Virus record (IMG/VR): IMGVR_UViG_3300030419_004825
Span: 1-32,390 of that record
Source of the DNA: a virus
Reading direction: 5' to 3' (one strand)
Length of the DNA stretch: 32,390 nt
The notes below the pieces were generated by a model. That model saw only the letters and a program-made list of their open reading frames with translations. It had not been told where the DNA came from and ran no database searches. The position numbers and the translations under genes were made by a program. Positions 6,531-32,271 of the stretch are shown here, one piece after another. Each line of letters starts with the position of its first letter. Positions within the stretch are counted from its first letter, which is position 1.

Positions 6531-6531
6531 A

Positions 6532-8607: not shown

Positions 8608-9246
8608 ATGGATACACTTTTAATAAGTTTTTACAGTGACATAGAAGATAACACCTACTATAGTGACCATGCCAGAAGATTAATTTCAGAATGTGAGGAT
8701 TTAGAGATTCCACATGATATTAGAAAAAAAGAATCTTTAGGAAGTTATCAATTAAACTGTCTTAGTAAACCACAATACATTTTAAATATGTTGGAAGGAC
8801 TAAATCGTCCTGTTTTATGGATGGACATCGACAGCAAAGTCCATAAACCACTAGACATATTTGACCAATTTGATGAATCAGTAGATATGGTGGTAGCAAC
8901 TGCAAACGGAATGGTTTCTGGAATGAAAGCATCCCCTTTATATTTTGGCAATACTGACAAAGCAAAAGAATTTATAAATGCTTGGATTACAGCAACAACA
9001 GATATACTTGAAAATAATGTAGGTGTGTTTGACCACGAACCTTTGTTCGGTCTTATTCCTATGTTTATAAAAAAGATGAATATACAATATGTTGGTCCAC
9101 AATATTGTATTTGGCCGGGACACACTAACGAAAACACTTACATTACTATGGGTCTTGCAGACGCAGAATCAAAGAAAGAATCTTTGAGAAGTTTGGGAAT
9201 GGCAGAAGATTTAATAGAGTGGCAATCACCAGGAAATAAAGTATGA
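8608..9246 (+). CDS. GT-A fold glycosyltransferase, DxD type
   Basis: This 212-residue protein is a probable nucleotide-sugar-dependent glycosyltransferase. The metal-binding DxD motif occurs as VLWMDIDSKVHKP, with DID at residues 73-75. It follows an LNCLSKPQYILNML helix, as in GT77-like and related small transferases. Later residues DHEPLFGLIPMF match the acceptor-side Asp-x-Glu pattern of this group. It is the first island gene. No clear ribosome site precedes the ATG at 8608, while an out-of-frame ATG lies 13 nt earlier. It overlaps the next gene by 4 nt. Donor and acceptor are unknown. Confidence 0.7.
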   Translation: MDTLLISFYSDIEDNTYYSDHARRLISECEDLEIPHDIRKKESLGSYQLNCLSKPQYILNMLEGLNRPVLWMDIDSKVHKPLDIFDQFDESVDMVVATANGMVSGMKASPLYFGNTDKAKEFINAWITATTDILENNVGVFDHEPLFGLIPMFIKKMNIQYVGPQYCIWPGHTNENTYITMGLADAESKKESLRSLGMAEDLIEWQSPGNKV

Positions 9247-10172
9247 AAATACAAGGAATAGGATTACCATTTAGCCCCCACCAATCTTCTTGTTCTAACA
9301 GGAAACCAAAGAACTTTGAATGGACATATAATAATGCAGAAATACAAGTATGGATGGACATGCACATTCCTATTGGAACAACCAAAACTAAATTAAATTC
9401 TGATATTAAAAAGTATGGGTGGTTTTGCGAGTCTAGAGAAGTTGTTCCATATTTGCAAGATGCTTTTAATAGTCCAAAAGTATTAGATGAAATAGTAAAT
9501 GCATATGATGGAATATTCACATGTGACCGAGAATTGGTAGACAAACATGAAAAGATTCATTTCTGTCTTGCAGGAAGTAATTTGCCTTGGATTTCAGACC
9601 CCAAATCAGAAATATATGAAAAAACAAAATTGTGTTCTTTTATTGCTTCACAAAAAACGACCACTGATGGCCACAGACAACGACATAGAGTGTATGATAA
9701 ATTTAAAGTTAGGATACGAGGAGAAAACATTATGGAAATGTTCGGGACTATTACGGGAGAAGACTTTGGTGCAAATCCCGGTTGCCACATAGAATCTAAA
9801 ATTAAAATTCCGTGGCATGATAAAACTAGCGGATTGAAAGATTTTATGTTTTCCACAGTAATAGAGAATGCACGATACGATGATTACTTTACAGAGAAGA
9901 TAACCGACTGCTTTGCAACTGGCACGATTCCAGTTTATTGGGGAACAAGGAACATCGGAGATTATTTCAATACTGATGGTATTATCACGATTCCAGACGA
10001 TGGCCACGGTGGTATAGATTTAGAAATGTTGGACTTTATTATATCAAATAGATTGACACCAGACTTATATTATAGTAAAATGGATGCCATAAAGGATAAT
10101 TTTGAAAGAGTTAAAACTATGCAATTAGCAGACGATATGTTGTTTGAGAAAATACAGGAATTAAATAGATGA
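9243..10172 (+). CDS. GT10 family alpha-fucosyltransferase-like protein
   Basis: The C-terminal half carries the GT10 signature: FSTVIENA at 203-210, YFTEK at 215-219, and GTIPVYWGTRNIGDYF at 227-242. This matches the GDP-fucose binding region of bacterial and animal alpha-1,3-fucosyltransferases. The N-terminal half would be the acceptor domain. The phage also encodes Gmd and Fcl, which make the GDP-fucose donor, so the pathway is closed within this window. It has 309 aa, a normal size for a soluble phage or bacterial GT10. It is coupled by 4-nt overlaps on both sides. Acceptor and linkage are unknown. Confidence 0.85.
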   Translation: MKIQGIGLPFSPHQSSCSNRKPKNFEWTYNNAEIQVWMDMHIPIGTTKTKLNSDIKKYGWFCESREVVPYLQDAFNSPKVLDEIVNAYDGIFTCDRELVDKHEKIHFCLAGSNLPWISDPKSEIYEKTKLCSFIASQKTTTDGHRQRHRVYDKFKVRIRGENIMEMFGTITGEDFGANPGCHIESKIKIPWHDKTSGLKDFMFSTVIENARYDDYFTEKITDCFATGTIPVYWGTRNIGDYFNTDGIITIPDDGHGGIDLEMLDFIISNRLTPDLYYSKMDAIKDNFERVKTMQLADDMLFEKIQELNR

Positions 10173-10924
10173 ACTATATCACCTTCACAACTTCTGGTTC
10201 AGTAAAACTTTGTAAGAATTTTTTATTAAGTGTAAAGAAACTTGGCATGGAAAAGAATTTTACTGTTTATTGTTTAGATAAAGAATCTTTATCTGAAATT
10301 GGTGATATGGGAATTGAAACAAAGTTTTTCGGCATTAAAGGAATTCGGTCTGGATTCCACGAATACGGCAAAAATGATTTTAGAAGAGTCACAGAAGCAA
10401 AAATACAAATAATAATAAACGAATTAAAAGATAAAGGTTCTTTGGTATATACGGATTGTGATGTGGTCTTCAGGCACGACCCAACACCATTTATTGAATA
10501 TTCTAATGAAGAAACTAAAGACAGAGAAGTGGATATAATTTTTGCATCAGACAATCCGTTCATGACAATATGTACTGGATTTATGTACATAAAGAACACA
10601 GAGAAAGTTCATGAATTGTTTAAAAAATATTTTGAGTTTAGTAGAATGTACGGTGTGGGTGGAAGTGAATGCATGTATGACCAAGAAATTATATTTAAGA
10701 TATTAACAGAACATCATTTGTCTTTTAATGAAAAAGAAAAATTGGTATGGGGAGTTTACCCAACAGACTTTGTAAAGAATGGTCATCTATATTGGAACGA
10801 ACCAGAAACAAGAACAGGAAATGAAGCAGTAGTTCATGTGAACTTTACGATAGGTGAAGAAAACAAGATAAATAGATTAAAGGAAGCAAACCTTTGGTAC
10901 AGTGAAAAGGAAGTTACATTATGA
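10169..10924 (+). CDS. GT-A fold glycosyltransferase (GT77-like), DxD type
   Basis: This probable glycosyltransferase reads YITFTTSGSVKLCKNFLLSV at the start, then GSLVYTDCDVVF with the DCD metal site at 96-98, then ICTGFMYIKNTE. This order of strands is typical of the nucleotide-diphospho-sugar transferase family that includes plant GT77 arabinosyl- and xylosyltransferases. A late CMYDQEIIFKIL resembles the family's D-Q-x-x-x motif. Its 251 aa is a complete single domain. It overlaps both neighbours by 4 nt. The donor sugar cannot be told. Confidence 0.8.
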   Translation: MNYITFTTSGSVKLCKNFLLSVKKLGMEKNFTVYCLDKESLSEIGDMGIETKFFGIKGIRSGFHEYGKNDFRRVTEAKIQIIINELKDKGSLVYTDCDVVFRHDPTPFIEYSNEETKDREVDIIFASDNPFMTICTGFMYIKNTEKVHELFKKYFEFSRMYGVGGSECMYDQEIIFKILTEHHLSFNEKEKLVWGVYPTDFVKNGHLYWNEPETRTGNEAVVHVNFTIGEENKINRLKEANLWYSEKEVTL

Positions 10925-12570
10925 GTATACCCGCAATATGCCACAACGCACATTATCTTTTTGAAGATGGAGTATTGGAATTTGATAGTCCAGTAGAAAT
11001 ACATGTTACTCGGTTTTCCGATAATATGAAGAAAATAGCCCCCAATGAAACCGAGTTTTCATTATCTTGTGAAAACTATCCAAGATATAATATACCATTT
11101 AAGGACTCAACTTCATATAGAGTTTTTATTAATTGTAACGAACCGATAACATCGCCCCATAGGGATAGTATAGAAGCAGTTATAGCAAACCATGACCAAT
11201 ATGATTTGATATTGACTACAGATGATTTGATATTGAATAATTGCAGTAATTCAGTTTTATTTCCTTATGGAACAACATGGTTGAATAAAGGAAGAATAGA
11301 CGATGAAAATGCAATAGGACATTATTCTTCTATAATTGATGAACTTCATAAAGATAAAAAATTTGAAACTAGTTTTTTGTGTTCGTTTCATGCAAGAGAA
11401 TTGGAAGGATATGAATTAAGAAAAACTGCTTGGTTGCTGATTATGAATAATACAGAAGCAGTAAAAACCCCTACCAACTTTTATAGCAGTCCAAGAATGC
11501 TTATACCCAATGCTCCAGAATGGTATTACGAAAGATTTAGGGATTTTATTGAAAATCCTTTGCCAAACGACAGTAAAGATGTTTTATTCTCTTCTCAATT
11601 TCATCTATCAATAGAAAGTACAAAAGTTAAGAATTATTTTACAGAAAAATTAATCGATGCATTAATTACAAAAACAGTTCCAATTTATTGGGGATGTCCA
11701 AACATTGGTGACTTTTTCAACGAAAAGGGAATTATTCAAGTAGATTCTATAGAAGATATAGTGAAGACAATTGACGAACTTACACCAGAAACATATGAGA
11801 GTATGTTGCCGTATATTGAAGAAAATTTTGAAATTGCAAAAGAGTATGCCTCCTCATTTGCAGAAAGGGTTAAGGGGGAGATTTTAAATCATATAAAACC
11901 AAAAGAAGAAAAAGAAGAAAAACAATACAAAACAGTAAATCTCAAACATGGTGTAGAAAAATTTCCAATAAAGGGTCATAAAAATGAAAAACTATTGACT
12001 ATAGGAATACCTTCGTTACATGAAAGAAAAGAAAGTCTGAACGAACTTTTAGCCTTCATAGATTCTACTACAAACGAAAAAAATATTAAAAAATCTAAAG
12101 TAGAAATTATAGTAAATTTGGATGATGGCGAAAAGACCGTAGGACAAAAAAGAAATGAAATTTTGGAACAGGCAAATGGAAAATTTATTTGTTATGTTGA
12201 TGATGACGATAAGATTGATGAGGATTATATAAATCTAATTCTTAAAACTATTGAAGAAAATCCAGAACTTGATTGTATAGGATTTACAGGAATGTATTAT
12301 GTCAATGGTGAACCAACCATGCTGTTCAAACATGCAAAGGAATATGGTGGTCATTATAAGAAAGAAGGAATTCAATACAGACCAGTGAATCACTTAAATC
12401 CTGTTCGTACTGAATTAGCACAACAGATAGGATTCCCTGAAAAGAACTTTGGGGAAGATAGTGATTATTGTGATAGACTACTTGAATCTGGTCTATTAAA
12501 AAACGAAGTAATACTAGACAAGGTGATGTATCATTACTTATGGAATAGTGAATTAACAAGGACCCATTAA
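10921..12570 (+). CDS. Two-domain glycosyltransferase: GT10-like fused to GT2
   Basis: This 549-residue protein joins two transferases. Residues 1-325 contain a GT10-type C-terminal signature: FHLSIEST at 227-234, YFTEK at 239-243, and TVPIYWGCPNIGDFF at 252-266. That is the same pattern as in the preceding GT10 gene. A charged linker (PKEEKEEK, about 327-334) leads to a GT2 domain from about 357 to the end. It has LLTIGIPSLHERKESLNELL, GQKRNEIL and the metal-binding VDDDD at 426-430, plus an acidic FGEDSDYCDRLL catalytic-loop segment. It could add two sugars in turn. The order and specificity are unknown. Confidence 0.85.
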   Translation: MSIPAICHNAHYLFEDGVLEFDSPVEIHVTRFSDNMKKIAPNETEFSLSCENYPRYNIPFKDSTSYRVFINCNEPITSPHRDSIEAVIANHDQYDLILTTDDLILNNCSNSVLFPYGTTWLNKGRIDDENAIGHYSSIIDELHKDKKFETSFLCSFHARELEGYELRKTAWLLIMNNTEAVKTPTNFYSSPRMLIPNAPEWYYERFRDFIENPLPNDSKDVLFSSQFHLSIESTKVKNYFTEKLIDALITKTVPIYWGCPNIGDFFNEKGIIQVDSIEDIVKTIDELTPETYESMLPYIEENFEIAKEYASSFAERVKGEILNHIKPKEEKEEKQYKTVNLKHGVEKFPIKGHKNEKLLTIGIPSLHERKESLNELLAFIDSTTNEKNIKKSKVEIIVNLDDGEKTVGQKRNEILEQANGKFICYVDDDDKIDEDYINLILKTIEENPELDCIGFTGMYYVNGEPTMLFKHAKEYGGHYKKEGIQYRPVNHLNPVRTELAQQIGFPEKNFGEDSDYCDRLLESGLLKNEVILDKVMYHYLWNSELTRTH

Positions 12571-12571
12571 T

Positions 12572-13480
12572 ATGTCAAAGAATATAATTAGTTTCAGTTT
12601 ATGGGGAGATAACCCATTTTATAATGTTGGTGCAATAAGAAATGCACAAAATGCATTACAACATTACGAAGAGTGGATTTGTAAGTTTTACATAGGAACA
12701 GATGTTCCAAAACAAACTGTCAAAGAACTTAAAGATATGCCTAATACAGAAGTAGTCATTATGGAAAATGAAGGAAATAGTTGGCCTGGAATGTTTTGGA
12801 GATTTTATGCTATATCAGACCCAGACGCAGAGTTTGTTATTTTTAGGGATACCGACTGTAGATTGACCAACCGAGAAGCACAAGCAGTAGGAGAATGGAC
12901 AAGAACAGATAAGTGTCTTCATATTATGAGGGACCATCCAATGCACACTGAACCAATTATGGGCGGAATGTGGGGAGTTAATGCCCCAAGTTTTATGAAA
13001 AAGTGTAGAGAAATGTGGGAAGACATCGACAATTCACCTATCACAATGAAAGATATTATTGATGGTTGGATTTCAAACGAAAAGAGAAGAACAGAAATGT
13101 ATGAACCGAGTTGTTTCCAAGAGTGGGAGTACGATGCCAGAGGAATAGACCAAAAGTTTTTGAGAGCATTTGTTTACAAGTTATCATGGTCGGATTCATT
13201 CATCCACGACAGTTTTCCTCAATATAATTCCTTTTCGGGAAGATTTGATTATCAGAGATATCCAGGCCTGAAAGAAATGAGTACAGGGTTTCCAACGGTA
13301 AGAGAGGATTGGAATGATTTTGTTGGACAAATTTGGGACGAGAACGAAATTGCTAATGAAGAATCCGCTGTGTTTTTAAAACGAAGAGATGAATGTATTT
13401 ACATGGACTGGAAAAAGTCTGACGATGCTATTCCAGTAGAAAAAGACACTCTTTACACCACAGAGGAGAATGTAATATGA
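12572..13480 (+). CDS. Glycosyltransferase, DxD type, tandem paralogue A
   Basis: This 302-residue protein opens with IISFSLWGDNPFYNVGAIRN and has WPGMFWRFYAISD followed by FVIFRDTDCRL, where RDTD at 92-95 is a GT-A metal site. HIMRDHP and GGMWGV follow. The next gene shares the same skeleton, showing a tandem duplication. An AAGGA ribosome site lies 9 nt before the ATG. This is the only island junction without overlap (1-nt gap), and the downstream junction overlaps by 4 nt. The C-terminal third (from about 240) differs from the paralogue. Donor and acceptor are unknown. Confidence 0.75.
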   Translation: MSKNIISFSLWGDNPFYNVGAIRNAQNALQHYEEWICKFYIGTDVPKQTVKELKDMPNTEVVIMENEGNSWPGMFWRFYAISDPDAEFVIFRDTDCRLTNREAQAVGEWTRTDKCLHIMRDHPMHTEPIMGGMWGVNAPSFMKKCREMWEDIDNSPITMKDIIDGWISNEKRRTEMYEPSCFQEWEYDARGIDQKFLRAFVYKLSWSDSFIHDSFPQYNSFSGRFDYQRYPGLKEMSTGFPTVREDWNDFVGQIWDENEIANEESAVFLKRRDECIYMDWKKSDDAIPVEKDTLYTTEENVI

Positions 13481-14310
13481 AAAAGGTAATAAGTTTCAGT
13501 TTATGGGGAGATAATCCAAACTATACTATTGGAGCGGTTCTTAATGCCGATATAGCAGAGAAAGAATGGCCGGGTTGGACTTGTAGATTCTACATTGCAC
13601 CAACTGTTCCAGATGGAATTGTAGAAGAATTAAAATCAAGAGATAATGTAGAAGTTGTTCTCATGGACGAAGATGAATCTTGGAATGGAATGTTCTGGAG
13701 ATTTTACCCTGCATCGGACACAGGTGTAGATGTAGCAATTTTTAGGGACACCGATTCTCGTATGCATATTAGAGATAAGGCCGCAGTAGAAGAATGGATT
13801 GAAAGTGATAAGGGTGTCCACATAATGAGAGATAATTGCCAGCATGGTTGGGTAATTTGTGGCGGTTTGTGGGGAACTAAAAGAGGTGCAATTCCAGAAT
13901 TAAAGCAAAGAATAGAAGATAATGAAATGCTTAAAAACAAAAACTTCAATAAACATGGAGTAGACCAAATATTTCTGCAATATACAATATACCCCCTAAT
14001 AAAAGAAAAGGCATTCGTTCATGATGATTGGTTTCCTGACGGATTTGTAGGAGAAGAAAAGCATCCATTCCCAATTCCAAGATTAAGGGGAGATGGTTGG
14101 TGGAATCAAGAGTTTCCAGAATGGCATGGTGGTAAAGAGGATGACCCAGAAAAATATCCGCATTGGTTTGGAGAAGATGGCCAAGGACATTGTTTTTTAA
14201 AGTGTCCGGCATGTGGAGAATATCATGACAACGAATATCTAGGAAAAGTAACAATGCTAACAAAAGAAGAAGAAGAGAAATATTCTCATCTATTAGGAGT
14301 TAAAGTATGA
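13477..14310 (+). CDS. Glycosyltransferase, DxD type, tandem paralogue B with Cys-x-x-Cys tail
   Basis: This paralogue of the preceding gene has VISFSLWGDNPNYTIGAVLN, GMFWRFYPASD, VAIFRDTDSRM (RDTD at 90-93), HIMRDNCQHGW and GGLWGT. DQIFLQYTIYPL is the acceptor-side segment. After about residue 200 it diverges into a Trp-, His- and Pro-rich stretch. It ends with CPACGEYHDN at 243-252, a possible zinc-binding turn (Cys-x-x-Cys with nearby His) that the sister protein lacks. It has 277 aa, with 4-nt overlaps both sides. Donor and acceptor are unknown. Confidence 0.75.
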   Translation: MKKVISFSLWGDNPNYTIGAVLNADIAEKEWPGWTCRFYIAPTVPDGIVEELKSRDNVEVVLMDEDESWNGMFWRFYPASDTGVDVAIFRDTDSRMHIRDKAAVEEWIESDKGVHIMRDNCQHGWVICGGLWGTKRGAIPELKQRIEDNEMLKNKNFNKHGVDQIFLQYTIYPLIKEKAFVHDDWFPDGFVGEEKHPFPIPRLRGDGWWNQEFPEWHGGKEDDPEKYPHWFGEDGQGHCFLKCPACGEYHDNEYLGKVTMLTKEEEEKYSHLLGVKV

Positions 14311-15221
14311 AAATTGATAAGGTAGTATTTTCCACATCGGAAGAATATAGTGGATTTTGGAACATTCAATCCAAAGTATACAAGGAAGCACTAGGAATAG
14401 AGCCAGTTTGCTTGTTGTTTGGTAAGAAAGAAAATACCAACATGACAGAAGAATATGGTACTATCATTGAACGAGAGTTTATTGAAGATTTGCCAAAGGT
14501 TATTCAGATAACTTGGTCTAAATTTGATTTTCCAAAGACTGAACCAGACACTACTTGGATGATTGGTGACATTGATATGATTCCCCTACAACGATATTAT
14601 TTCACCGAACACATATCTGATGCAAAAGAAGATGCTTACTTGCATTTGAATCTTGCCGGCATATCTTTGCCAAGAAGAGGTTCTTTGGATGCTTTTATAA
14701 CAGAAGGTTCGGAAGCACATTGCAGAGATAGAGGAAGTTATAATACTGGTGCAGATTTAGCAGGACATTATCATGTTTCTAAAGGTTCAAACTTTATAAA
14801 GGTATTTGATTTGGATAGACCATTTAGGGAACAAATTGAATATATAACATCTGCACATCGTTACGGTCTAGGTCCTGCGGGACAAGCAAAAAAACCAGAA
14901 GGTATAGACGAGGTAATGAATGCCGGCAGTTATTACTGGTGTGCAGAAGAAAGTTATTCTTCAGAAAGAATATGGAATGCCATGACGGCTAAAGAAATTG
15001 TATTTGGTGGTTATTGTTATCACAATTCTCTCAATAGAGTTGATAGAAGTACATGGAATAATGACATTAAAGAATATCAATATGACCCGGCCAGACTAGC
15101 AAATGGAAGAGATATTGTTGATATTCATTGCGAAAGACCATACGAAAAGCAAGAGGAAGCACTAAATAGGATTATAGAATTATCTGGTATTTTATCGCCT
15201 GTGGAAGCAATTAGTGAATAA
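14307..15221 (+). CDS. Probable glycosyltransferase with DxD motif
   Basis: This 304-residue protein starts with a beta-alpha unit (VVFSTSEEYSGFWNIQS). WMIGDIDMIPL, with DID at 88-90, is the expected GT-A metal site. A YNTGADLAGHYHV segment and later YWCAEESYSSERIW may form acceptor or donor contacts. It resembles hypothetical proteins of polysaccharide clusters more than any CAZy family I can name. It overlaps the previous gene by 4 nt and the kinase-aldolase by 8 nt. A glycosyltransferase role is inferred from the motif and position only. Confidence 0.6.
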   Translation: MKIDKVVFSTSEEYSGFWNIQSKVYKEALGIEPVCLLFGKKENTNMTEEYGTIIEREFIEDLPKVIQITWSKFDFPKTEPDTTWMIGDIDMIPLQRYYFTEHISDAKEDAYLHLNLAGISLPRRGSLDAFITEGSEAHCRDRGSYNTGADLAGHYHVSKGSNFIKVFDLDRPFREQIEYITSAHRYGLGPAGQAKKPEGIDEVMNAGSYYWCAEESYSSERIWNAMTAKEIVFGGYCYHNSLNRVDRSTWNNDIKEYQYDPARLANGRDIVDIHCERPYEKQEEALNRIIELSGILSPVEAISE

Positions 15222-16629
15222 GATTATTGCAATATCTGGAAGTTCTGGAGTCGGGAAAACAACAATATCCCGACTTATTTCCATTGCTTTGCCAAATGAA
15301 AAAACTTTGGTATTTAGTGGAGATGACCTGCACAGATGGGAGAGGGGAGATGAAAATTGGAAAACATATACACACCTAAACCCAGAAGCAAATAATCTTC
15401 TATTGGGATATGAACATTTAAGAACTTTAAAGAGCAACAACAAGATAGTTCACAGGAAATATAATCACGATACTGGAAAGTTTGACCCAAGCATAGATGT
15501 GTATCCTGCGAAGTTTATAGTGTATGAGGGCCTTCATGCACTTTATGATGTTCGGGTTAGGGATTTATCTTGGATTAAAATATTTGTAGATACTGATGAA
15601 TCCTTAAAGAAAGAATGGAAGATTAAAAGAGATACTCAAAAAAGAGGATATACCAAAAAGCAGGTCGAAGATGCAATGTCTAGAAGAACTGCCGATGAGA
15701 AAAACTACATTACACCACAAAGAAAATATGCTGATGTTATAATTCGTTTTAAGAAGGATAACGATAGAGTATTATTAACTTATGAGTTGATAAATCCTGA
15801 AGCAAAAGAATTAATGGAAATGTTATCTGTAGCATACAACAAACATTTTGAATTTATTGATGTTTGTAATTCGCTGTCAACGGACTTCAATCTAGTGCAA
15901 AGTCGTGGTGGAAATGTTTCTTATAAAATAAATGATAAATTAATAATAACTTCTTCTGGTTCAAAGATGTCGGATGTAACTACATTTAGTGGTCATTGTA
16001 TTTGCAACATACATTTACTTCCTTCATACTTTAATGATGAAACTTTTTATACAAATAAACTTATGAAATCCAAACTATTTGAATCCAATGAAAGGCCTTC
16101 TATGGAAACTGGGTTGCATAGCAATTTAGAAAAATGTATAGTACACACTCACCCAATTTATTTGAATGTTATATTATGTTCAAAAGAATCTGAGAATATA
16201 ATAGAAGAAATATTTTCTGATTTGGATTATGAATTTGTTATATACTCTAGCCCTGGCATAGAATTGTCAAATGCAATAGGAAGTTACAGAGAAGCATCAG
16301 TTTATTTCCTACAGAATCATGGGTTGGTGGTTTGTGATGATAATCTCAGCAATGCTTATGAACTGACTAAATATATTAATGAAGAAAGTAGAAAATGGTT
16401 AGAGAAAAATAAAAGAGATTTTCATTGGAAAATAATGCCTGATAATGTCAATAGTCCAGATTATCTTTTTCCAGATGCTGTAGCATTAAGTGAAGAAAAT
16501 TCAAATGTAAATAATTATCTCTATAAGGGTATAGTAAATATAGGACTGACTCCAAACTTTTTAAATGGCGAAGAAATAGATAAGATAAAGAATATGGAAT
16601 CTGAGAAATACAGGAGAAGTTTAGTATGA
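15214..16629 (+). CDS. Phosphoribulokinase/uridine kinase-like domain fused to class II aldolase
   Basis: This is a 471-residue two-domain enzyme with a GTG start. Residues 1-180 form a P-loop kinase of the phosphoribulokinase/uridine kinase family: GSSGVGKTT at 9-17, YEGLHALYDVRVRDL at 104-118, and WKIKRDTQKRGYT followed by YADVIIRF. The spacing is notably like that of phosphoribulokinase. Residues from about 205 to 400 are a class II aldolase/adducin domain. It has SRGGNVSY at 230-237, SSGSKMSD, PSMETGLH at 295-302 (candidate catalytic Glu 298), the zinc ligands in HTHP at 311-314, and NHG at 368-370. A kinase that phosphorylates a small sugar or polyol next to an aldolase acting on a sugar phosphate suggests one short pathway. 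The substrates are unknown. Confidence 0.85.
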   Translation: MNKIIAISGSSGVGKTTISRLISIALPNEKTLVFSGDDLHRWERGDENWKTYTHLNPEANNLLLGYEHLRTLKSNNKIVHRKYNHDTGKFDPSIDVYPAKFIVYEGLHALYDVRVRDLSWIKIFVDTDESLKKEWKIKRDTQKRGYTKKQVEDAMSRRTADEKNYITPQRKYADVIIRFKKDNDRVLLTYELINPEAKELMEMLSVAYNKHFEFIDVCNSLSTDFNLVQSRGGNVSYKINDKLIITSSGSKMSDVTTFSGHCICNIHLLPSYFNDETFYTNKLMKSKLFESNERPSMETGLHSNLEKCIVHTHPIYLNVILCSKESENIIEEIFSDLDYEFVIYSSPGIELSNAIGSYREASVYFLQNHGLVVCDDNLSNAYELTKYINEESRKWLEKNKRDFHWKIMPDNVNSPDYLFPDAVALSEENSNVNNYLYKGIVNIGLTPNFLNGEEIDKIKNMESEKYRRSLV

Positions 16630-17793: not shown

Positions 17794-18632
17794 TTAAAGA
17801 GATAGGACTATTCTATGAAGATATATGGCCTGAAAAAAAGAACGGGCCTGCTAAAGTTGCAAAAAATCTAATAGCAGGACTATCTTCTTTGGGAGTTACG
17901 GTTCATCGTAATGCTTTATTAAAATATACAGGTATATTACAACCCTATCCCCTTCCCGACCTTAAACAAAATGCTTTAATAGGTCCAAATAGTTTCAATC
18001 TTCCCATTGAATATGGTCCTTCTTCTTGGGAAATAAAAAGAAATATTGTAGCACCATCAGAATGGATTGCGAACCGATGGAAAGAAGATTTAGACTCAAA
18101 ACATAATGTTCATGTTTGGCCAGTAGGAATAGACACTGATTATTTTACACCATCAACCGAACCTCCAAAAATTGATTGTTTGTTTTATTATAAACTTTCT
18201 TCTCTGAGTGGTAACTTACAAAAGGTTTTGAAAAAAATGATAGACGATGGTATCTCATATGAAGGAATTATCTATGGAAATTATGAAGAAGAAGAACTTA
18301 TTTCTATTGCTAGGTCCTCAAAGTATTGTATTATGGTGGCAAGTTCAGAAACTCAGGGTATAGCATATCAGGAAATTCTTTCAATGAATATACCAATGTA
18401 TGTTCTTGATTGTAATGTAACTCATCACTTTAAACCAAACAATCCCGAAGGTGTAACTTCCGCACCATACTTTGATGATAGGTGTGGAATAAAACATCCA
18501 GACCTTTCACGATTTGATGAATTTTTAGATAGGCTGGATGAGTTCTCTCCAAGAGAATATATATTAGAGAACCTTACACTTAAAAAGTGTGCGAGTGAAT
18601 ATCTTTCGTTATTGGAGAAGTGTTATGAGTGA
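17790..18632 (+). CDS. GT4-like (GT-B fold) glycosyltransferase
   Basis: This 280-residue protein is a probable GT-B transferase. An N-terminal domain with GPAKVAKNLIAGLSSLGVTV leads to VAPSEWIANRWK and VWPVGIDTDYFTP, the classic Rossmann-hinge junction of GT4. The C-terminal donor domain has SSKYCIMVASSETQGIAYQE, in which the E-x7-E type segment is partly kept (SETQGIAYQEIL). It is shorter than most GT4 enzymes (350-400 aa), with a reduced N-terminal domain. It overlaps the neighbours by 4 and 8 nt. Donor and acceptor are unknown. Confidence 0.75.
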   Translation: MIKEIGLFYEDIWPEKKNGPAKVAKNLIAGLSSLGVTVHRNALLKYTGILQPYPLPDLKQNALIGPNSFNLPIEYGPSSWEIKRNIVAPSEWIANRWKEDLDSKHNVHVWPVGIDTDYFTPSTEPPKIDCLFYYKLSSLSGNLQKVLKKMIDDGISYEGIIYGNYEEEELISIARSSKYCIMVASSETQGIAYQEILSMNIPMYVLDCNVTHHFKPNNPEGVTSAPYFDDRCGIKHPDLSRFDEFLDRLDEFSPREYILENLTLKKCASEYLSLLEKCYE

Positions 18633-19092
18633 TATTACCTTTATATCCCACAGAGGAAATATTGAAGGTGTATGGGCAGAAAGAGAAAATAGCCCAGATT
18701 ATATTGACCGTGCAATAAAACTCGGTTACGATGTAGAAGTAGACCTTCGTTCTAAAGATGGAAAACTGTGGCTTGGTCATGATGAGCCACAATATGAGGT
18801 CTGTATTAGTTGGTTGTTGGGAAGAAGAGAAAATTTATGGGTTCATGTAAAAGATTATGGGGCATTAGTTTCTATTATGAGAACAGAATTAAGATTCTTT
18901 TGCCACGAACAAGACAAATATACACTTACAAGTAATGGTTATATATGGTCACATGATTTAAATAATAAAATGAATGATAGGTGTATAGTTCCATTACTAT
19001 CATCAAAAGAAGTTGCTTCTTATGAGCAGAGAGGATTTTATGCAGTATGTTCCGACTACATATATGAATGTGAGGAAAAATTTAATGATTGA
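18625..19092 (+). CDS. Short glycerophosphodiester phosphodiesterase-like protein
   Basis: This 155-residue protein carries the GDPD/PI-PLC-like signature. HRG lies at 9-11, NSPDYIDRAIKLGYDVEVDL at 22-41 supplies Glu38 and Asp40, and the second His is in LWLGHD at 48-53. A full GDPD TIM barrel is about 240 residues, so this protein lacks the last strands or is a compact version used in polysaccharide loci. Such enzymes cleave glycerol-phosphate type diesters. I chose the ATG at 18625, which has GGAG 7 nt upstream and an 8-nt overlap with the previous stop. The longer frame to 18589 has no such support. Confidence 0.7.
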   Translation: MSDITFISHRGNIEGVWAERENSPDYIDRAIKLGYDVEVDLRSKDGKLWLGHDEPQYEVCISWLLGRRENLWVHVKDYGALVSIMRTELRFFCHEQDKYTLTSNGYIWSHDLNNKMNDRCIVPLLSSKEVASYEQRGFYAVCSDYIYECEEKFND

Positions 19093-19864
19093 AAATATAG
19101 TGAATTGGATTTCTGATTATGCAAAAGATAACAAATTAACCACATTGGTAATTGGTGTTTCTGGTGGCATAGATTCTGCTGTAACTTCAACTCTTTGTGC
19201 AATGACAGGACTAAGAGTAATTGTTCTTAATATGCCTATCCATCAAGATAAGACTTTAGATTCAATGTCTGATAAGCATATAGATTGGTTGAAAGAAAAA
19301 TACACAAATGTAGAATCTCAAAAAATTGACTTAACAAAAACATTTGAAATGTTTTCTGATTGTTTTGAGGAAAGAGATAAGGATAGTCTTTCTTTAGCAA
19401 ATTCTCGTGCAAGATTACGAATGACAGCACTATATCAAATTGCAGGAGCGAATGGAGGTCTTGTGGTTGGTACTGGAAATAGAGTTGAAGATTTTGGTGT
19501 GGGGTTTTTTACAAAGTATGGAGATGGTGGAGTAGATATCAGTCCTATTGCCGATTTAATTAAAACGGAAGTTTGGGAAATCGCAAAGGAACTTGAAATA
19601 GAAGAAGAGATTATTAATGCACCACCTACAGATGGTTTGTGGGACGATGGAAGAACTGATGAAGAACAGTTGGGGGCATCATATGCAGAAATTGAAATGG
19701 CAATGGCCTATGCTGAAGAACATGATTTAAACGATTTTGAACCAACTGGAAATAATTCGTTTGACTTGGTATTGAAAGCATATTTTTCACACAGGAATAA
19801 GAATATTCATAAAATGAAATCTATTCCCATTTTTAAAAAGGATAAAATATGCTTTGTACAGTAA
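19085..19864 (+). CDS. nadE: NAD+ synthetase, ammonia-dependent type
   Basis: This enzyme amidates nicotinic acid adenine dinucleotide to NAD+ using ATP and ammonia. The PP-loop SGGIDS lies at residues 26-31. The remaining signatures are kept: RARLRMTALYQIA, GTGNRVED, FFTKYGDGGVDISPIADL and a PPTDGLWDDGRTDEEQLG segment. No glutaminase domain is present, so ammonia must be free or supplied by the host. It has 259 aa, normal for this type. I chose the ATG at 19085 (GAGGA 8 nt upstream, 8-nt overlap). It might serve NAD supply, counter host NAD depletion, or provide cofactor for the sugar dehydrogenases here. Those roles are inference. Confidence 0.92.
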   Translation: MIENIVNWISDYAKDNKLTTLVIGVSGGIDSAVTSTLCAMTGLRVIVLNMPIHQDKTLDSMSDKHIDWLKEKYTNVESQKIDLTKTFEMFSDCFEERDKDSLSLANSRARLRMTALYQIAGANGGLVVGTGNRVEDFGVGFFTKYGDGGVDISPIADLIKTEVWEIAKELEIEEEIINAPPTDGLWDDGRTDEEQLGASYAEIEMAMAYAEEHDLNDFEPTGNNSFDLVLKAYFSHRNKNIHKMKSIPIFKKDKICFVQ

Positions 19865-20532
19865 TGGTGCCGACTAGAGGAAGAGTAGAACATTTGAATA
19901 AGATGTTATATACATTATTTTCTTCTGTTTCTGACCCAAATTGCATTGAAGCAGTTATGAGGGTAGATGAAGATGATGTTGAAACACAAGACTATCTGGC
20001 AGATAAATTGAATAACAATATTAAAATGATTGTTGGGGAAAGATATAGAGGATATGTAGAATTAAATAGATTCTATAATGAAATAGCAGAACAAGCAAGG
20101 GGAACTTGGCTATTTCTTTCTAACGATGATTTATATTTTAATAAAACTGATTGGGATTTGCAATTGGCAAAGATAGAAGAGGTTTTGGTTTTAAATCCAA
20201 AAACAATGTTAAATGGCTCATGGTTGCCGGCAGAAACAGGAAATACATTTCCAATAATGCACAAAAGAATTCATGAAGTTTTGGGATATTTTTGTCCTTG
20301 TTTCTTAAATGACGCTTACACTTCTAAGTTAGCAAAATCAGTAGAATTGGAAAGGTACGCACCATTCATAGAAATCATTCATACCAGAGGCGATTTGAAT
20401 GAACATAATGATGTCGTAGTAAGGGAATCAATGGGAATTCCACATGGAACATATGAAGCATGTGAAGAAGCACATCTTCATGGTGATATAGAAAAAATAT
20501 TAAATTCAGATTTAAAAGGAATACTAAAATGA
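19849..20532 (+). CDS. GT2-like glycosyltransferase
   Basis: This 227-residue single-domain GT-A protein opens with TVMVPTRGRVEHLNKMLYTL, the usual GT2 start. A helix-strand unit carries MRVDEDDVETQDYL, and TWLFLSNDDLYF holds the NDD metal-binding site. IIHTRGDLNEHNDVVV lies in the position of the GT2 acceptor loop. AAGGA precedes the ATG at 19849 by 6 nt, and the start lies 16 nt inside nadE. It is coupled to ugd by a 4-nt overlap. No membrane segment is seen, so it should act in the cytoplasm. Donor unknown. Confidence 0.78.
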   Translation: MLCTVMVPTRGRVEHLNKMLYTLFSSVSDPNCIEAVMRVDEDDVETQDYLADKLNNNIKMIVGERYRGYVELNRFYNEIAEQARGTWLFLSNDDLYFNKTDWDLQLAKIEEVLVLNPKTMLNGSWLPAETGNTFPIMHKRIHEVLGYFCPCFLNDAYTSKLAKSVELERYAPFIEIIHTRGDLNEHNDVVVRESMGIPHGTYEACEEAHLHGDIEKILNSDLKGILK

Positions 20533-21794
20533 AAATAGGATTTATGGGATTAGGAAAATTAGGTTTGCCTTGTGCTTTAGCAATAGATGAAAAAGGTCAC
20601 GAGGTTTGTGGTTATGATATAAATTCTAGTGTTAAGAATATTCTTGATACAAAGGAACTTCCTTACAGAGAAGAAGGAGCGCCAGAACTTCTACAAAATC
20701 ACAACATTACTTTCTGTGATGTAGAGAATGTGGTCAAGAATTCTGACATTATTTTTGTTCCCATTCAGACCCCACATGACCCGTACTTTGAAGGGACAAC
20801 TAGACTACCAGAAGAAAGAGTAGATTTTGATTACACATATCTAAAGGATGGTCTTAAAACTTTGTCTGATGAGATTGACAGACAAGGTGAAGAAAAGATT
20901 GTAATTATTATTTCTACCGTTTTGCCAGGAACTGTTCGGAGAGAAATTAAACCAATTCTAAGTAACCTAATTAAGTTATGTTATAACCCTTTCTTCATTG
21001 CAATGGGAACTACAATCAATGACTTTACGAATCCTGAATTTGTTCTCTTTGGTGTGGACGATAAAGATGCATATGAAACTGCAAAAGATTTTTATGCCAC
21101 TATTCACGATAGACCAGTTTATGAATGTACTATCGAAGAGGCAGAAATGATTAAGGTTTCATACAACACTTACATCACTATGAAGATTAATCTTGCAAAT
21201 GTCATTATGGAAGCGGCTCATAAATTAGATAATGTGAATTGCGATAATGTTATGCGTGGTATGTTCCTTGCTAATGAAAGACTTATTAGTACCAAGTATC
21301 TTCTTGGTGGAATGGGAGATGGTGGTGGATGTCACCCAAGAGATAATATTGCGTTGTCATGGATGGCACAAGAATTAGATTTGAGTTACGATTGGTATGA
21401 AAATTTAATGGTTTGTAGAGAGAAACAAACAGAATGGCTAGCAGATTTAATTTTAGATAAAGTTTCAGAATCTGGATTGAATCCAATCATACTAGGTAAG
21501 TGTTTCAAGAAAGAAACAAACTTGACTGTCGGTAGTCCTTCTATTCTGTTGAAAAATATACTATTAGAAAAAATTGATTCTGTAGAAATGTATGACCCTT
21601 GGGTTGATGATGGTGAAGCACCAATTGGTGAACCTGCTATATTCTTTATTGGAACAAATCATGATAAGTTTTTGGATTATAAATTTCCAGAAGGTTCTGT
21701 AGTCATAGACCCTTGGCGTATGATGAAAGAACAAGATGGAGTGGAGTATATTTATGTCGGAGATAGTACAAGAAAAAAATATGCTAGTGTCTGA
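20529..21794 (+). CDS. ugd: UDP-glucose/GDP-mannose dehydrogenase family (nucleotide-sugar 6-dehydrogenase)
   Basis: This enzyme oxidises the C6 alcohol of a nucleotide sugar to a carboxylate with two NAD+, typically UDP-glucose to UDP-glucuronate. The NAD-binding GLGKLGLP lies at 7-14. STVLPGT is at 130-136 and MIKVSYNTYITMKINLANV, with the conserved Lys and Asn, is at 207-225. The catalytic cysteine is in GGGCHPRD at 265-272 (Cys268). C-terminal ILGKCFKKETNL fits the family's third domain. It has 421 aa, normal length. Exact substrate is open: the GGGCHP context differs from the GGSCFP of typical UDP-glucose enzymes. nadE two genes upstream could support its NAD need (inference). Confidence 0.88.
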   Translation: MKIGFMGLGKLGLPCALAIDEKGHEVCGYDINSSVKNILDTKELPYREEGAPELLQNHNITFCDVENVVKNSDIIFVPIQTPHDPYFEGTTRLPEERVDFDYTYLKDGLKTLSDEIDRQGEEKIVIIISTVLPGTVRREIKPILSNLIKLCYNPFFIAMGTTINDFTNPEFVLFGVDDKDAYETAKDFYATIHDRPVYECTIEEAEMIKVSYNTYITMKINLANVIMEAAHKLDNVNCDNVMRGMFLANERLISTKYLLGGMGDGGGCHPRDNIALSWMAQELDLSYDWYENLMVCREKQTEWLADLILDKVSESGLNPIILGKCFKKETNLTVGSPSILLKNILLEKIDSVEMYDPWVDDGEAPIGEPAIFFIGTNHDKFLDYKFPEGSVVIDPWRMMKEQDGVEYIYVGDSTRKKYASV

Positions 21795-22668
21795 TAAACT
21801 GAGGCCGAAAGCATCTTATCCAACATATCCTCCATATCATAGGGGATTGTACTTGGAAGAATACTTCTTTGATTTTTATCAAAGAAACATTGACCGTTTT
21901 AATAAGTTAAGTCGGCAATATCTTCCTATATTCTGGACAAACTGTTATGTCAATGGTGTTGAAGATGGTTGGGGAGATATAACTTCTCTGGAGGATTTGC
22001 AAATAGAAATTAACAGACTTGACGCCAATGGTAAATATTTCACAATTTGCCAACACGATGATGCACCAATGAATCCCATTCCCGCAAACACTATTGTACT
22101 ATCAGCAGGGGGAAATATAGTAGGAAGCAATGTAGCACCAATTCCACTTATTTGTGGTCCACTTGCCAAGCAAGAACCTAAAGAAAAAACTTTGCTTGCA
22201 TCTTTTGTCGGTTCGGATACTCACGAAATAAGAAGACAGATGGTAAAAGAACTAAAAGACAAACCAGACATCTATATAGCAACTAAGGGATGGGAACAGA
22301 AAATAAAAGTAGACCAACTCACAGATTTCGTAGAATCATCTCTAAGGAGTAAATTTGTTCTTTGTCCTAGAGGGTATGGGGCAACTAGTTTTAGATTATA
22401 TGAAGCAATGCAATTAGGTTCTGTTCCAGTTTACATCAGTGATAGATTTTGGACTCCTTGGACCTATGAGTTGAGTTGGAATGAATTTTGTGTTCTAATC
22501 CCCTCAGATAAAATTGGAGAAACATATTCAATTTTAAACTCTATAGACGATGAGCAATATGAAAGTATGCAAAGAAAGATTAAAGAAGTATATGAAAATT
22601 ACTTTACATTAGAGGGAACTTGTAATAAAATATTACAACTATTAGAATTACAGGAAACATTAGAATGA
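21754..22668 (+). CDS. Exostosin family (GT47-like) glycosyltransferase
   Basis: The exostosin signature lies in the C-terminal half: SSLRSKFVLCPRGYGATSFR, then LYEAMQLGSVPVYISDRFWTPW. In this family that region binds the nucleotide-sugar donor. LLASFVGSDTHEIRRQM upstream also fits. Exostosins transfer glucuronate, GlcNAc, galactose or xylose, and the neighbouring ugd could provide UDP-glucuronate. I chose the ATG at 21754 because GGAG sits 7 nt upstream. Alternatives are ATGs at 21736 and 21781. It overlaps ugd by 41 nt with this start, and the epimerase by 4 nt. No N-terminal membrane anchor is seen, unlike in animals. Confidence 0.85.
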   Translation: MSEIVQEKNMLVSDKLRPKASYPTYPPYHRGLYLEEYFFDFYQRNIDRFNKLSRQYLPIFWTNCYVNGVEDGWGDITSLEDLQIEINRLDANGKYFTICQHDDAPMNPIPANTIVLSAGGNIVGSNVAPIPLICGPLAKQEPKEKTLLASFVGSDTHEIRRQMVKELKDKPDIYIATKGWEQKIKVDQLTDFVESSLRSKFVLCPRGYGATSFRLYEAMQLGSVPVYISDRFWTPWTYELSWNEFCVLIPSDKIGETYSILNSIDDEQYESMQRKIKEVYENYFTLEGTCNKILQLLELQETLE

Positions 22669-23555
22669 AATATTTAGTTACAGGTGGTGCAGGATTTATT
22701 GGAAGCAATTTAGTAGATGAACTTATTAATCAAGGTCATGAAGTTGTTTGTGTTGATTTGAATGATGAAGGATATTGGAATGTTGATGCAGACAATTATT
22801 GTTGGGATGTTTGTGATTCTAAAAAAATGAATACTTTAATGGATGGGGTAGATGCAGTATTTCATATGGCCGCAGAAGTAAAAATACAGGAAACAATATC
22901 AGACCCAGTTAAGTGTTATAACACTAATGTTATCGGCACTTCTGTTGTGTTGGATTCTGCCAGAAAAAATAATGTAAAGAAAGTTGTACTGTCTTCAACT
23001 TCTGCAATTTATAAATGTGACTGGTTAGTACAACCAGAAGATTCTTCTGAAGACCCATCACTTAGTCCGTATGCATCGTCAAAGAAAAGTGCAGAGGATT
23101 TGTGTAAACTATATTCTAATTGTTATGGATTGAACACAACAATATTGCGGTATTTTAATGTGTATGGAAATAGACAACACAGTGAAGGTCAATATGCACC
23201 AGTATTGGGAATCTTTATCAGACAAAGAACTGAAAACAAACCACTAACAATTACAGGAGATGGAACTCAAAGAAGAGATTTCGTTCATGTTGATGATGTA
23301 GTTAGGGCAAATATTTTAGCATCACAAAGTTTTGAAAAATCTGGGGAAATTTATAATGTTGGAAGTGCAAAAAATTATTCTGTTCAGGAAATAGCAGATA
23401 TGATTTGTCCAATTCAGACATACATAGATAAGAGAGAGGGTGAAATAGAAAGTACTCTTGCAATTATTGACAAGATTGAAAGTGAATTAGATTGGACCCC
23501 AGAAGTTTCTTTAGAAGAATGGTTACAAAATGAATTGAAAGTGGTTACAGTATGA
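22665..23555 (+). CDS. NAD-dependent nucleotide-sugar epimerase (GalE-like)
   Basis: This extended short-chain dehydrogenase has GGAGFIGSNLVDEL at 7-20, an AAEVKIQETI strand, STSAIY and the catalytic Tyr-x-x-x-Lys in PYASSKKSAEDL. LRYFNVYGNRQ, then GDGTQRRDFVHVDDV, shows it acts on a nucleotide sugar, as in UDP-glucose or UDP-glucuronate 4-epimerases. It has 296 aa, slightly short (usual 310-340). Placed two genes after ugd, it may interconvert UDP-glucuronate and UDP-galacturonate, or be a GalE. The sequence alone does not settle this. It overlaps both neighbours by 4 nt. Confidence 0.87.
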   Translation: MKYLVTGGAGFIGSNLVDELINQGHEVVCVDLNDEGYWNVDADNYCWDVCDSKKMNTLMDGVDAVFHMAAEVKIQETISDPVKCYNTNVIGTSVVLDSARKNNVKKVVLSSTSAIYKCDWLVQPEDSSEDPSLSPYASSKKSAEDLCKLYSNCYGLNTTILRYFNVYGNRQHSEGQYAPVLGIFIRQRTENKPLTITGDGTQRRDFVHVDDVVRANILASQSFEKSGEIYNVGSAKNYSVQEIADMICPIQTYIDKREGEIESTLAIIDKIESELDWTPEVSLEEWLQNELKVVTV

Positions 23556-24847
23556 ACAAAAAAACACCAAAAGATAAAACAATTACACTCTGTATGATTG
23601 TAAAGAACGAAACTCATATTATTGAAGAATGTCTTGAGTCTATGTTGCCGTATATTGACCGATACGATATTACAGATACAGGTTCTACTGACGGAACACC
23701 AGAACTTATTAAAGAATTTTTTGATAAACATGAAATTCCAGGAGAGGTCTATCTTTCCGATTGGAAAGGTTTTGGTGACCATGCAGGCAAGATGGGAAGT
23801 AGAACAGAATCTTTGAGAAATTGTGATGGTAAAGCAGACTATGGGTGGGTAATTGATGCAGACGACTATGTTACTGGAAATTTTGAATTTCCAGAAGTGA
23901 TGGATAAAGATTCATATAGTCTTCGTATCGGCCGAGAAGACTTTACTTGGTGGAGAACTCAGATATTTAAAATGAATGTTGGATGGAAATATGTTGGCGT
24001 TCTTCATGAATATGCCGAATGCGAAACAAAGAATCCACCAGAAACAGAAAGAATATTTGGGGAATATCATGTGTCTGCAAGAACAGAAGGTGCAAGAAAT
24101 GTGGGAATAACCACTCTAGAAAAATATACAAAAGATGCACAAGATTTAGAAAAGGCATTAGAAGATGAACCAGATAATTCACGATATGTTTTTTATCTTG
24201 CACAATCATATTTCGATTCACAACAATATGAAAAATCATTAGAAACATATCTCAAACGAGCAGAAATGGGCGGATGGGAAGAAGAAGCATTCTACTCTTT
24301 GTATCGTGCGGGTATGCTAAAGGCACTTTTAGATTATTCATGGCCAGAAATTCAACAGCAATTTTTAGATGCATATGAATATCGTCCTTGCCGTGCAGAA
24401 CCATTATATCAGATTGCAAGGTTATATCGTCAAGTTCATAACAGACCTAGACTTGCTTACATGTACGCAAAACAAGCACTAGAAATTCCATATCCAAAAG
24501 AGGACATTTTGTTCATCAGTGATGATGTCTATAAGTGGCAACTTCTCGATGAGATAGGTGCTAGTGCATATTATGCGGGTAAACCTCATGTTGGGTATCA
24601 TGCATGTAAAAGGCTATTGGATGAAAATCTTGTACCAGAGCAAGAAAAGATAAGAGTACAGACTAATTTCAGTCAATATGAACAAGTGGTTACTATGATT
24701 CAATCACAAATAGCACAAGAAGAAATAGAAAATAAAATAAAAGAAAAAGAAGAAAAGAAACAAGCAAAATTGGACAAGGTAAATAAAGATAAGAAGGGTA
24801 CTAAATTCAACCAGAACAAAAAGAGAAAGAGAAAGAAACGAAAATAA
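23552..24847 (+). CDS. GT2 glycosyltransferase fused to TPR repeats with a lysine-rich tail
   Basis: This 431-residue protein ends the island. Residues 11-130 are a GT2 domain with TLCMIVKNETHIIEECLESM and DTGSTDGT, plus the metal-binding DADD in GWVIDADDYVTG. A TWWRTQIFK and HEYAE segment closes the GT domain. From about 195 to 380 are TPR-like helical pairs (YVFYLAQSYFDSQQYEKSLE is typical). The last 45 residues form a charged helix and a polybasic end (KKRKRKKRK). TPRs may hold the enzyme to its acceptor protein or to the other transferases. This fusion type is common in marine phages. Confidence 0.85.
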   Translation: MNKKTPKDKTITLCMIVKNETHIIEECLESMLPYIDRYDITDTGSTDGTPELIKEFFDKHEIPGEVYLSDWKGFGDHAGKMGSRTESLRNCDGKADYGWVIDADDYVTGNFEFPEVMDKDSYSLRIGREDFTWWRTQIFKMNVGWKYVGVLHEYAECETKNPPETERIFGEYHVSARTEGARNVGITTLEKYTKDAQDLEKALEDEPDNSRYVFYLAQSYFDSQQYEKSLETYLKRAEMGGWEEEAFYSLYRAGMLKALLDYSWPEIQQQFLDAYEYRPCRAEPLYQIARLYRQVHNRPRLAYMYAKQALEIPYPKEDILFISDDVYKWQLLDEIGASAYYAGKPHVGYHACKRLLDENLVPEQEKIRVQTNFSQYEQVVTMIQSQIAQEEIENKIKEKEEKKQAKLDKVNKDKKGTKFNQNKKRKRKKRK

Positions 24848-29767: not shown

Positions 29768-29788
29768 TGAACACAAAGGAGATTTATT

Positions 29789-32265: not shown

Positions 32266-32271
32266 TATAGT

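Follow-up and report, generated by a model that had tools for sequence, protein, structure and literature searches.

A glycosyltransferase island beside a collagen-like fibre gene in a marine T4-like phage: a candidate pathway for virion glycosylation

The virus record IMGVR_UViG_3300030419_004825, a complete linear record of 32,390 bases that we analysed whole (hereafter the window), comes from a T4-like phage and carries at positions 8608-24847 an island of 18 genes for glycosyltransferases (GTs) and enzymes of sugar-donor type. We consider it about an even bet (roughly 0.5) that soluble phage enzymes encoded here build an oligosaccharide on a protein of the phage's own virion, likely the collagen-like fibre encoded next to the island or a neighbour of that fibre, and we rank this reading ahead of, in falling order, remodelling of the host surface, a heterogeneous cargo of sugar genes and modification of phage DNA. 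In many relatives a likely protein GT stands beside a collagen-like particle protein, and the phage therefore probably decorates its own particle.

Results

The last island gene and its collagen-like neighbour

The gene that closes the island encodes a GT2 domain joined to a TPR-like part (GT2-TPR; Table 1), the TPR_17 match scoring 21.6 bits against a cut-off of 24.4. Its nearest PDB chains are GmaR (E 1.5e-8), 7msk (E 2.4e-4, spanning 257 residues and labelled Glyco_trans_2-like protein in the PDB) and SunS (0.009), together with engineered TPR proteins; we take GmaR to be the flagellin GlcNAc transferase and 7msk to be a SunS-type S-glycosyltransferase. As a control, the GT2 domain of gene 10921 matches 6p61 and 5tze/5tz8 (TarS by entry titles) and not protein GTs. 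The matches of GT2-TPR thus support a protein acceptor, short of proving one.

Downstream lie a small gene (24879), for which a tblastn search of phages gave no match, and the gene of a collagen-like tail fibre protein with 57 consecutive GXY triplets, our candidate acceptor. We compared 80 of 198 GT2-TPR loci, 63 of them extending 1.5 kb or more downstream and 70 extending as far upstream. A collagen-like open reading frame (ORF) follows GT2-TPR in 48 of the 63 (or, after clustering at 80% identity, in 23 of 31 clusters) and precedes it in 0 of the 70. A 24879-like gene occurs within the next two genes in 31/63, and a dUTPase gene, the same right border as in the window, within six genes in 32/80. 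The full order of GT2-TPR, 24879-like and collagen-like genes is shared by the window and its distant relatives L036, L037 and L045. At the level of whole records, 23 were sampled independently of GT2-TPR or collagen, and a collagen pattern was present in seven of eight with GT2-TPR versus three of 15 without (Fisher p 0.006); after removal of four GT2-TPR-negative records ending 10 kb or less from regA, the figures are 7/8 versus 3/11 (p 0.02). In one of the GT2-TPR records collagen is not adjacent, and a 24879-like gene together with a Thr-rich collagen run is found about 11 kb away. No collagen run was found in a 160-kb record without GT2-TPR, and HTVC008M has neither a collagen run of at least eight triplets nor a GT2-TPR relative. 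In the open-licence PubMed Central (PMC) literature, a search found no paper on a collagen-like phage protein accompanied by a GT and TPR gene, and a wider search on regA and collagen gave nothing to the point among the papers listed.

A fixed locus between regA and the dUTPase gene

The interval between regA and the dUTPase gene measures 21,197 nucleotides (nt) in the window, includes the 57-triplet collagen run and reads, in order, GTs, GT2-TPR, the small gene, the collagen-like fibre gene and two more. Among 21 loci in which regA is followed by a dUTPase gene, 19 have 5-321 nt between the two and no collagen, a share biased to short intervals because no locus extends more than about 10 kb downstream, and such counts do not tell gain from loss. 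The comparison indicates that in the window's lineage GTs, collagen-like and structural genes occupy one segment at this place. In the island-less isolates HTVC008M and Mosig, regA is followed by one to three other genes and then by DNA polymerase (in HTVC008M, after one short ORF). Among RegA-selected loci with at least 1 kb downstream (63 of 80, the 80 being the best 80 of 599 relatives), 31 have an island-type GT within 1.5 kb of regA, two have DNA polymerase and 30 neither; a relative of the first island gene, 8608, lies near regA in 24/63. Some loci are near-duplicates or share a contig (for example L003/L004, L018/L098 and L036/L206).

Island content varies strongly among relatives, as would be expected of a hypervariable spot that gathers sugar genes of differing or no use; in the excerpts of Sullivan 2010 available to us (PMC3037559), the function of comparable clusters was left open and 'stuffer DNA' was allowed. 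We regard such a heterogeneous cargo as quite improbable, given that the 13 loci chosen as nearest to the window keep collinear blocks of genes 33-90% identical, each gene being present in one to nine loci, that the ends are conserved, and that the window has 18 intact frames with overlapping junctions and a GC content, overall and at third codon positions (GC3), like that of neighbouring genes. Recent foreign insertion was also rejected, on the equal GC and GC3 and the existence of collinear divergent islands. Clusters of GTs in marine T4-like phages are already known; the regA-dUTPase locus and the coupling of GT2-TPR to collagen appear to be new, no report of either having been found among the papers listed by searches of the open-licence PMC literature.

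Organization of the island

The proteins gp45 (3901), gp44 (6532), gp62 (7744) and RegA (8185) are encoded in T4 order, as judged by family matches of the window proteins, and the nearest gp44 relatives are those of Pelagibacter phage HTVC008M (60% identity) and Methylophilales phage Melnitz (59%). The window, itself a fragment, lacks gp23, which is present in 11 of 12 relatives' records. The phage is thus T4-like, as a first-pass annotation made from the sequence had stated. That annotation also described eighteen genes in a row on one strand, nearly all overlapping by 4-50 nt, with about a dozen GTs and their donor-making enzymes, and most of this holds: exactly 18 consecutive intact ORFs, all on the + strand, fill 8608-24847, and 16 of the 17 junctions overlap, by 4-80 nt (the length of the longest overlaps depends on the start codon chosen), the remaining one having a 1-nt gap. 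The island holds 18 ORFs of 120 aa or more on one strand, whereas 100 dinucleotide shuffles gave a mean of 0.04 and a maximum of 1, which leaves no room for chance. The count of a dozen GTs is fair (11 genes with 12 domains), and seven donor-type genes accompany them. The annotation had missed that the unit extends beyond the island, with gmd and fcl upstream (4618-6530) and the GT run continuing into virion-type genes downstream (to 29739). A search for near-identical copies of the island among 50,697 phage records gave no match, and the window has no tRNA genes.

The proposed single operon is unproven. Only 15 nt lie between the end of regA and the start of 8608, and the island thus looks like an extension of the 44-62-regA cluster, with no break between it and the clamp-loader genes. 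The accompanying remark that no internal promoter was seen agrees with a scan of consensus promoters, not of phage-specific ones: sigma-70-like matches (63) are below those in shuffles (86.0, standard deviation (sd) 8.6), and the window's single copy of TATAAATA, which we take to be the T4 late motif, is at 610 and so not in the island. Terminator-like sites exceed expectation (13 versus 6.8 in shuffles, sd 2.7) and lie inside genes.

Glycosyltransferases

Seven of the 11 GT genes were assigned by family match, three by predicted GT-A fold or paralogy and one (14307) tentatively, by motif and conservation. Matches above the Pfam cut-off are GT10 (9243), Nucleotid_trans (10169, presumably GT77-like), GT10 plus GT2 (10921), GT47 (21736) and GT2 (23552), and those below it are GT4 (17790) and GT2 (19849, with PHROG support). 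Glycos_transf_1 (PF00534) had no match in the window. Genes 8608 and 13477 were modelled, and 12572 is a paralogue of 13477; the 13477 model aligns with mannosylglycerate synthase at VIA Z 13.6 (root-mean-square deviation (rmsd) 3.3, 176 residues aligned). Relatives of 14307, 72-87% identical, lie in collinear islands.

The best Foldseek hit of the 8608 model is A064R-D1 of PBCV-1 (2p6w, E 2.2e-9), a GT of the major capsid protein, and VIA-align against three A064R-D1 entries gave Z 15.1-15.6 and rmsd 3.5-3.9 over 176-188 aligned residues; Z-scores for GT6 enzymes are about the same, a tie. The link comes from the fold search only, the profile of the 8608 family having found no match in the PDB by sequence. 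Gene 8608 is therefore predicted to share the fold of this chlorovirus capsid GT, and a shared fold shows no function.

Sugar donors

The donor-type genes of the island are 15214, 16626, 17428, 18589, 19013, 20529 and 22665. Outside it, gmd and fcl sit between the sliding clamp gene gp45 and the clamp loader gene gp44, as they also do in L016, L017 and L018, and judged by their families would feed the GT10 enzymes with GDP-fucose.

A conserved module surrounds 15214, for which phosphoribulokinases are the nearest solved chains. Kinase, aldolase, small HAD protein, GDPD-like protein and one or two nucleotidylyltransferases occur together in all six 15214-bearing loci (two of them near-duplicates); kinase and aldolase are fused in the window and L001 and separate in L002 and L005, among others. 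The GDPD-like protein has 24 invariant columns across 13 sequences and found no match in the PDB, either as a single sequence or as a 13-row profile, nor any in plasmids; among phages it occurs in 16 records, all Synechococcus. Heptose routes use kinase, phosphatase and nucleotidylyltransferase steps, and by analogy the module probably makes a nucleotide-activated sugar or polyol. It appears to be new; a literature search turned up no paper on a known kinase-aldolase capsule pathway.

HTVC008M (L218) has at 28890-32312 three consecutive genes, for a carbamoyltransferase, NadE and a UDP-glucose/GDP-mannose dehydrogenase, its NadE being 55% identical to that of gene 19013, and the pairing of NadE with a sugar dehydrogenase thus recurs.

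Table 1. Island genes and flanking features of the window, by position.
Feature	Position	Strand	Basis
fcl-like GDP-L-fucose synthase	4618..5517	+	NF047922 E 9e-64, below equivalog cut-off
gmd, GDP-mannose 4,6-dehydratase	5481..6530	+	TIGR01472 E 3e-122, 407.9 bits (cut-off 415)
RegA translational repressor, left border of island	8185..8592	+	PF01818 E 1.6e-42; phrog_242
GT-A glycosyltransferase, first island gene	8608..9246	+	AlphaFold pLDDT 91.9; kept after regA
GT10 fucosyltransferase-like	9243..10172	+	PF00852 E 5.7e-7, above cut-off; PDB alpha1,3-fucosyltransferase 2nzw E 1.4e-6
Nucleotide-diphospho-sugar transferase	10169..10924	+	PF03407 E 1.6e-18
GT10 + GT2 two-domain transferase	10921..12570	+	PF00852 and PF00535, above cut-off
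GT-A-type transferase	12572..13480	+	Same family as 13477 (paralogue)
GT-A glycosyltransferase	13477..14310	+	AlphaFold pLDDT 82.1; Foldseek glycogenin E 2.4e-6
Probable GT-A transferase	14307..15221	+	DxD-like WMIGDID motif, putative; no family match
PRK-type kinase fused to class II aldolase	15214..16629	+	PF00485 E 1e-43; PF00596 E 2e-16
Sugar-phosphate nucleotidylyltransferase	16626..17477	+	PF12804 E 1e-9; PDB 4evw E 1.5e-14
Small HAD-type phosphatase	17428..17793	+	PDB 9iqw 'Capsule biosynthesis protein' E 7.5e-9; HAD motif by eye
GT4-like transferase	17790..18632	+	PF13439 E 4e-4, below cut-off
GDPD-like small protein of donor module	18589..19092	+	PF03009 E 0.04 only; likely start ATG 18625
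NadE-type NAD synthase	19013..19864	+	PF02540 E 1e-51; TIGR00552 above cut-off
GT2-like transferase	19849..20532	+	PF00535 E 0.013; phrog_14945 glycosyltransferase E 8.6e-14
Nucleotide-sugar 6-dehydrogenase, UDP-glucose type	20529..21794	+	TIGR03026 191.6 bits (cut-off 189.8)
GT47 exostosin-type transferase	21736..22668	+	PF03016 E 2.5e-19
NDP-sugar epimerase/dehydratase, GalE-like SDR	22665..23555	+	PF01370 E 9e-59; TIGR01179 best, below cut-off
GT2-TPR, candidate protein-targeting glycosyltransferase, last island gene	23552..24847	+	PF00535 above cut-off, TPR_17 below
Small protein after GT2-TPR	24879..25310	+	phrog_1084 E 3e-10, PHROG without function
Collagen-like tail fibre protein, candidate acceptor	25451..26710	+	PF01391 E 8e-31; phrog_5073 tail fiber E 5e-47
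Virion structural protein	26735..28615	+	phrog_10330 E 9e-13
Right-handed beta-helix protein, possible tailspike	28615..29739	+	PF13229 E 5e-6
dUTPase, right border of 21.2-kb segment	29789..30313	+	phrog_135 E 1.5e-45

Evidence on the target of the glycan

When transmembrane-like stretches are called by a simple Kyte-Doolittle window instead of a trained predictor, the 18 island proteins have none. By the same measure ORFs with at least two such stretches number 0/480 in GT2-TPR loci, on their island side, and 4/363 after regA; in the bacterial loci that hold the GDPD-like gene they number 43/356. A flippase (PF13440) and an initiating transferase (PF02397) were each found in 0/12 relatives' records, which are fragments, as is the window, and the island thus does not resemble an O-antigen or capsule locus of the Wzx/Wzy type.

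These results bear on the published view of pelagimyophage GTs (Zaragoza-Solas 2020, PMC7029224, in the excerpts available), by which cytoplasmic GTs would alter lipid-linked O-chain or capsule precursors, leave the rest to the flippase and polymerase of the host and so exclude other phages. The distribution of the GDPD-like gene is consistent with it: this gene occurs in 27 bacterial or archaeal loci, 12 of them titled Pelagibacter or Pelagibacteraceae, and 24 of the 27 also have a 16626-like nucleotidyltransferase (fused to a HAD domain in the two bacterial cases and the one cyanophage case scanned). Since the pair is found in bacteria, and one Pelagibacteraceae copy neighbours a WavE lipopolysaccharide (LPS) gene, the same donor sugar may be present in host glycans. 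We nevertheless judge remodelling of the host surface unlikely, in view of the missing membrane-type proteins, initiating transferase and flippase, and because it leaves unexplained why GT2-TPR ends the island beside a collagen-like virion gene.

DNA hypermodification, in which the GTs would build oligosaccharides on modified bases of the phage DNA, is more improbable still. T4 relatives glycosylate their DNA, the island abuts replication genes, and the window carries a weak NMAD1-like gene (31924) and, at its left end, an N4/N6-type methyltransferase-like gene. The thymidylate-synthase family (PF00303), which includes base hydroxymethylases, was nevertheless found in just one of 12 relatives' records, one without GT2-TPR, and a C5-methylase in 0/14, the records being fragmentary; a TET/JBP search was empty, its positive control likewise giving no signal. 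As far as fragmentary records allow, these results weigh against a full lipid-linked route to the glycan and also against DNA glycosylation on hydroxymethylated bases.

Other genes of the window

Some genes at the edges of the window and among its replication and structural genes deserve mention. The gene at 31924-32241 weakly matches DUF1599 (nucleotide modification associated domain 1) at E 1.7e-4, which is under the cut-off; a gene of this type lies near the dUTPase gene in several relatives. The gene at 1-759, N4/N6-type DNA methyltransferase-like (PF01555, below cut-off) and cut by the left end of the record, is 57-88% identical in relatives. The product of 772-2175 appears to fuse a thioredoxin/glutaredoxin-like N-terminal part (thioredoxin-domain hint from phrog_22) to a glutamine synthetase of the GlnII type (Pfam GS domains; NF041605 E 2e-104, below cut-off), and some relatives carry a 43-66% identical gene in the corresponding position. 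A GroES-like gene (7467-7760; Cpn10 E 6e-7) stands between gp44 and gp62, a site occupied by a 2OG-Fe(II) oxygenase in HTVC008M and Mosig. Following the structural genes, the beta-helix protein of 28615-29739 is possibly a glycan-cleaving tailspike.

Discussion

Glycosylation of a virion protein would proceed as follows. Gmd and Fcl could, by their sequences, supply GDP-fucose, the 6-dehydrogenase and the GalE-like SDR a uronic acid or its epimer, and the set of PRK-type kinase/aldolase, HAD phosphatase, nucleotidylyltransferase and GDPD-like protein is a further conserved module of donor type. GT2-TPR would recognize a polypeptide through its TPR part and place the first sugar, and the ten other GTs, which have no predicted membrane segments, would extend the glycan in the cytoplasm of the host, ahead of assembly. 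What lies between the two fixed ends (regA on one side, GT2-TPR and collagen on the other) may be exchanged among phages, and the glycan of the particle would therefore change. The first-pass annotation had argued that the glycan is complex and not one added sugar, a view that the gene content supports, and had left open whether it goes on the virion, DNA or host surface. The evidence now leans to the virion: GT2-TPR is paired with collagen, membrane-type proteins are missing, and the thymidylate-synthase family is almost absent from relatives.

Several observations weigh against a glycosylated virion protein, which is a prediction from gene content. GmaR matches the GT2 domain over a stretch of just 63 residues, and the GT6 enzymes with which 8608 is tied act on free glycans. 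In 15 of the 63 GT2-TPR loci the available sequence has no downstream collagen-like ORF; L209 has regA, GT2-TPR alone (6001-7266) and dUTPase with no collagen run in 13 kb, and the regA-dUTPase interval of L067 holds 8608-, 9243- and 10921-like genes and no collagen. The cyanophages S-CAM9, S-PRM1 and SynMITS9220M01 have collagen patterns and lack GT2-TPR, and we accordingly rejected the idea that every collagen gene here needs this enzyme. The collagen repeats are Thr-rich in several relatives and contain no Thr in the window, so no shared acceptor residue is evident. Because the loci behind the 48 of 63 were chosen by GT2-TPR, they are not a random sample of phages, and the linkage to collagen may be partly or only shared ancestry of gene order.

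A fuller proposal is tentative, and we hold it with less confidence than the general one: a marine T4-like lineage would carry between regA and the dUTPase gene an exchangeable glycoprotein factory, with donors, about ten GTs and a TPR protein GT, that glycosylates the adjacent collagen-like fibre with a complex oligosaccharide. It is possible, at odds clearly below even, that the receptor-facing fibre is a true glycoprotein whose oligosaccharide includes a sugar or polyol from the undescribed route of kinase, aldolase, HAD, GDPD-like and nucleotidylyltransferase proteins.

GT clusters of marine phages have since at least 2010 been interpreted as O-chain modifiers or gone without an explanation. 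The fixed locus, the linkage of GT2-TPR to collagen and the lack of membrane steps offer a specific and testable alternative, phage-made glycoprotein fibres, in parallel to giant viruses. If true, it would bear on host range and on the way in which abundant phages of the ocean present themselves, and would point to a compact soluble enzyme set and a possible new nucleotide-sugar pathway, the latter also in SAR11-type bacteria.

Comparison with known systems

The published systems are cited here from the parts of the papers available to us. T4-like cyanophages carry large LPS gene clusters whose use was left open (Sullivan 2010, PMC3037559), and those of S-SM2, S-SSM7 and P-SSM2 likewise have runs of GTs, epimerases and nucleotidyltransferases in a T4-like phage. 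The window shares with such marine clusters adjacent GTs and nucleotide-sugar genes, and its set of aldolase, HAD, GDPD-like and nucleotidyltransferase genes recurs in the cyanophages S-SM2 and Bellamy. The cyanophage clusters lie near hli03/phoH (PMC3037559), whereas the island is fixed between regA and the dUTPase gene and ends with GT2-TPR and collagen-like genes, GT2-TPR being present in 0/6 cyanophage records tested. The host recognition cluster of pelagimyophages, for which O-chain modification was favoured, is likewise variable and combines GTs with tail fibre genes, again in T4-like phages of the sea (Zaragoza-Solas 2020, PMC7029224); it lies between VrlC and gp14, whereas the island is flanked by RegA (8185) and dUTPase (29789).

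Among viruses that glycosylate their own particles, mycobacteriophages have glycans on capsid and tail tube (Freeman 2023, as cited in PMC12619734), and the parts of PMC12619734 available describe no 18-gene island of donors and GTs and no link to collagen. Mimivirus L230 is of the same kind, a virus GT acting on a virus collagen-like protein (PMC9614988, PMC4691112); L230 has a lysyl hydroxylase domain, whereas GT2-TPR has by Pfam only GT2 and TPR. The chlorovirus PBCV-1 encodes GMD, GDP-fucose synthase and mostly soluble GTs (PMC9614988, PMC4691112), and soluble virus GTs and virus-made GDP-fucose are also what the window suggests at the level of sequence. PBCV-1 differs in being an unrelated virus of another host, with an N-linked glycan on its capsid protein, and the match of 8608 is at fold level only. 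As far as can be told from genes alone, the pathway of the window would operate in a way that resembles chlorovirus capsid glycosylation.

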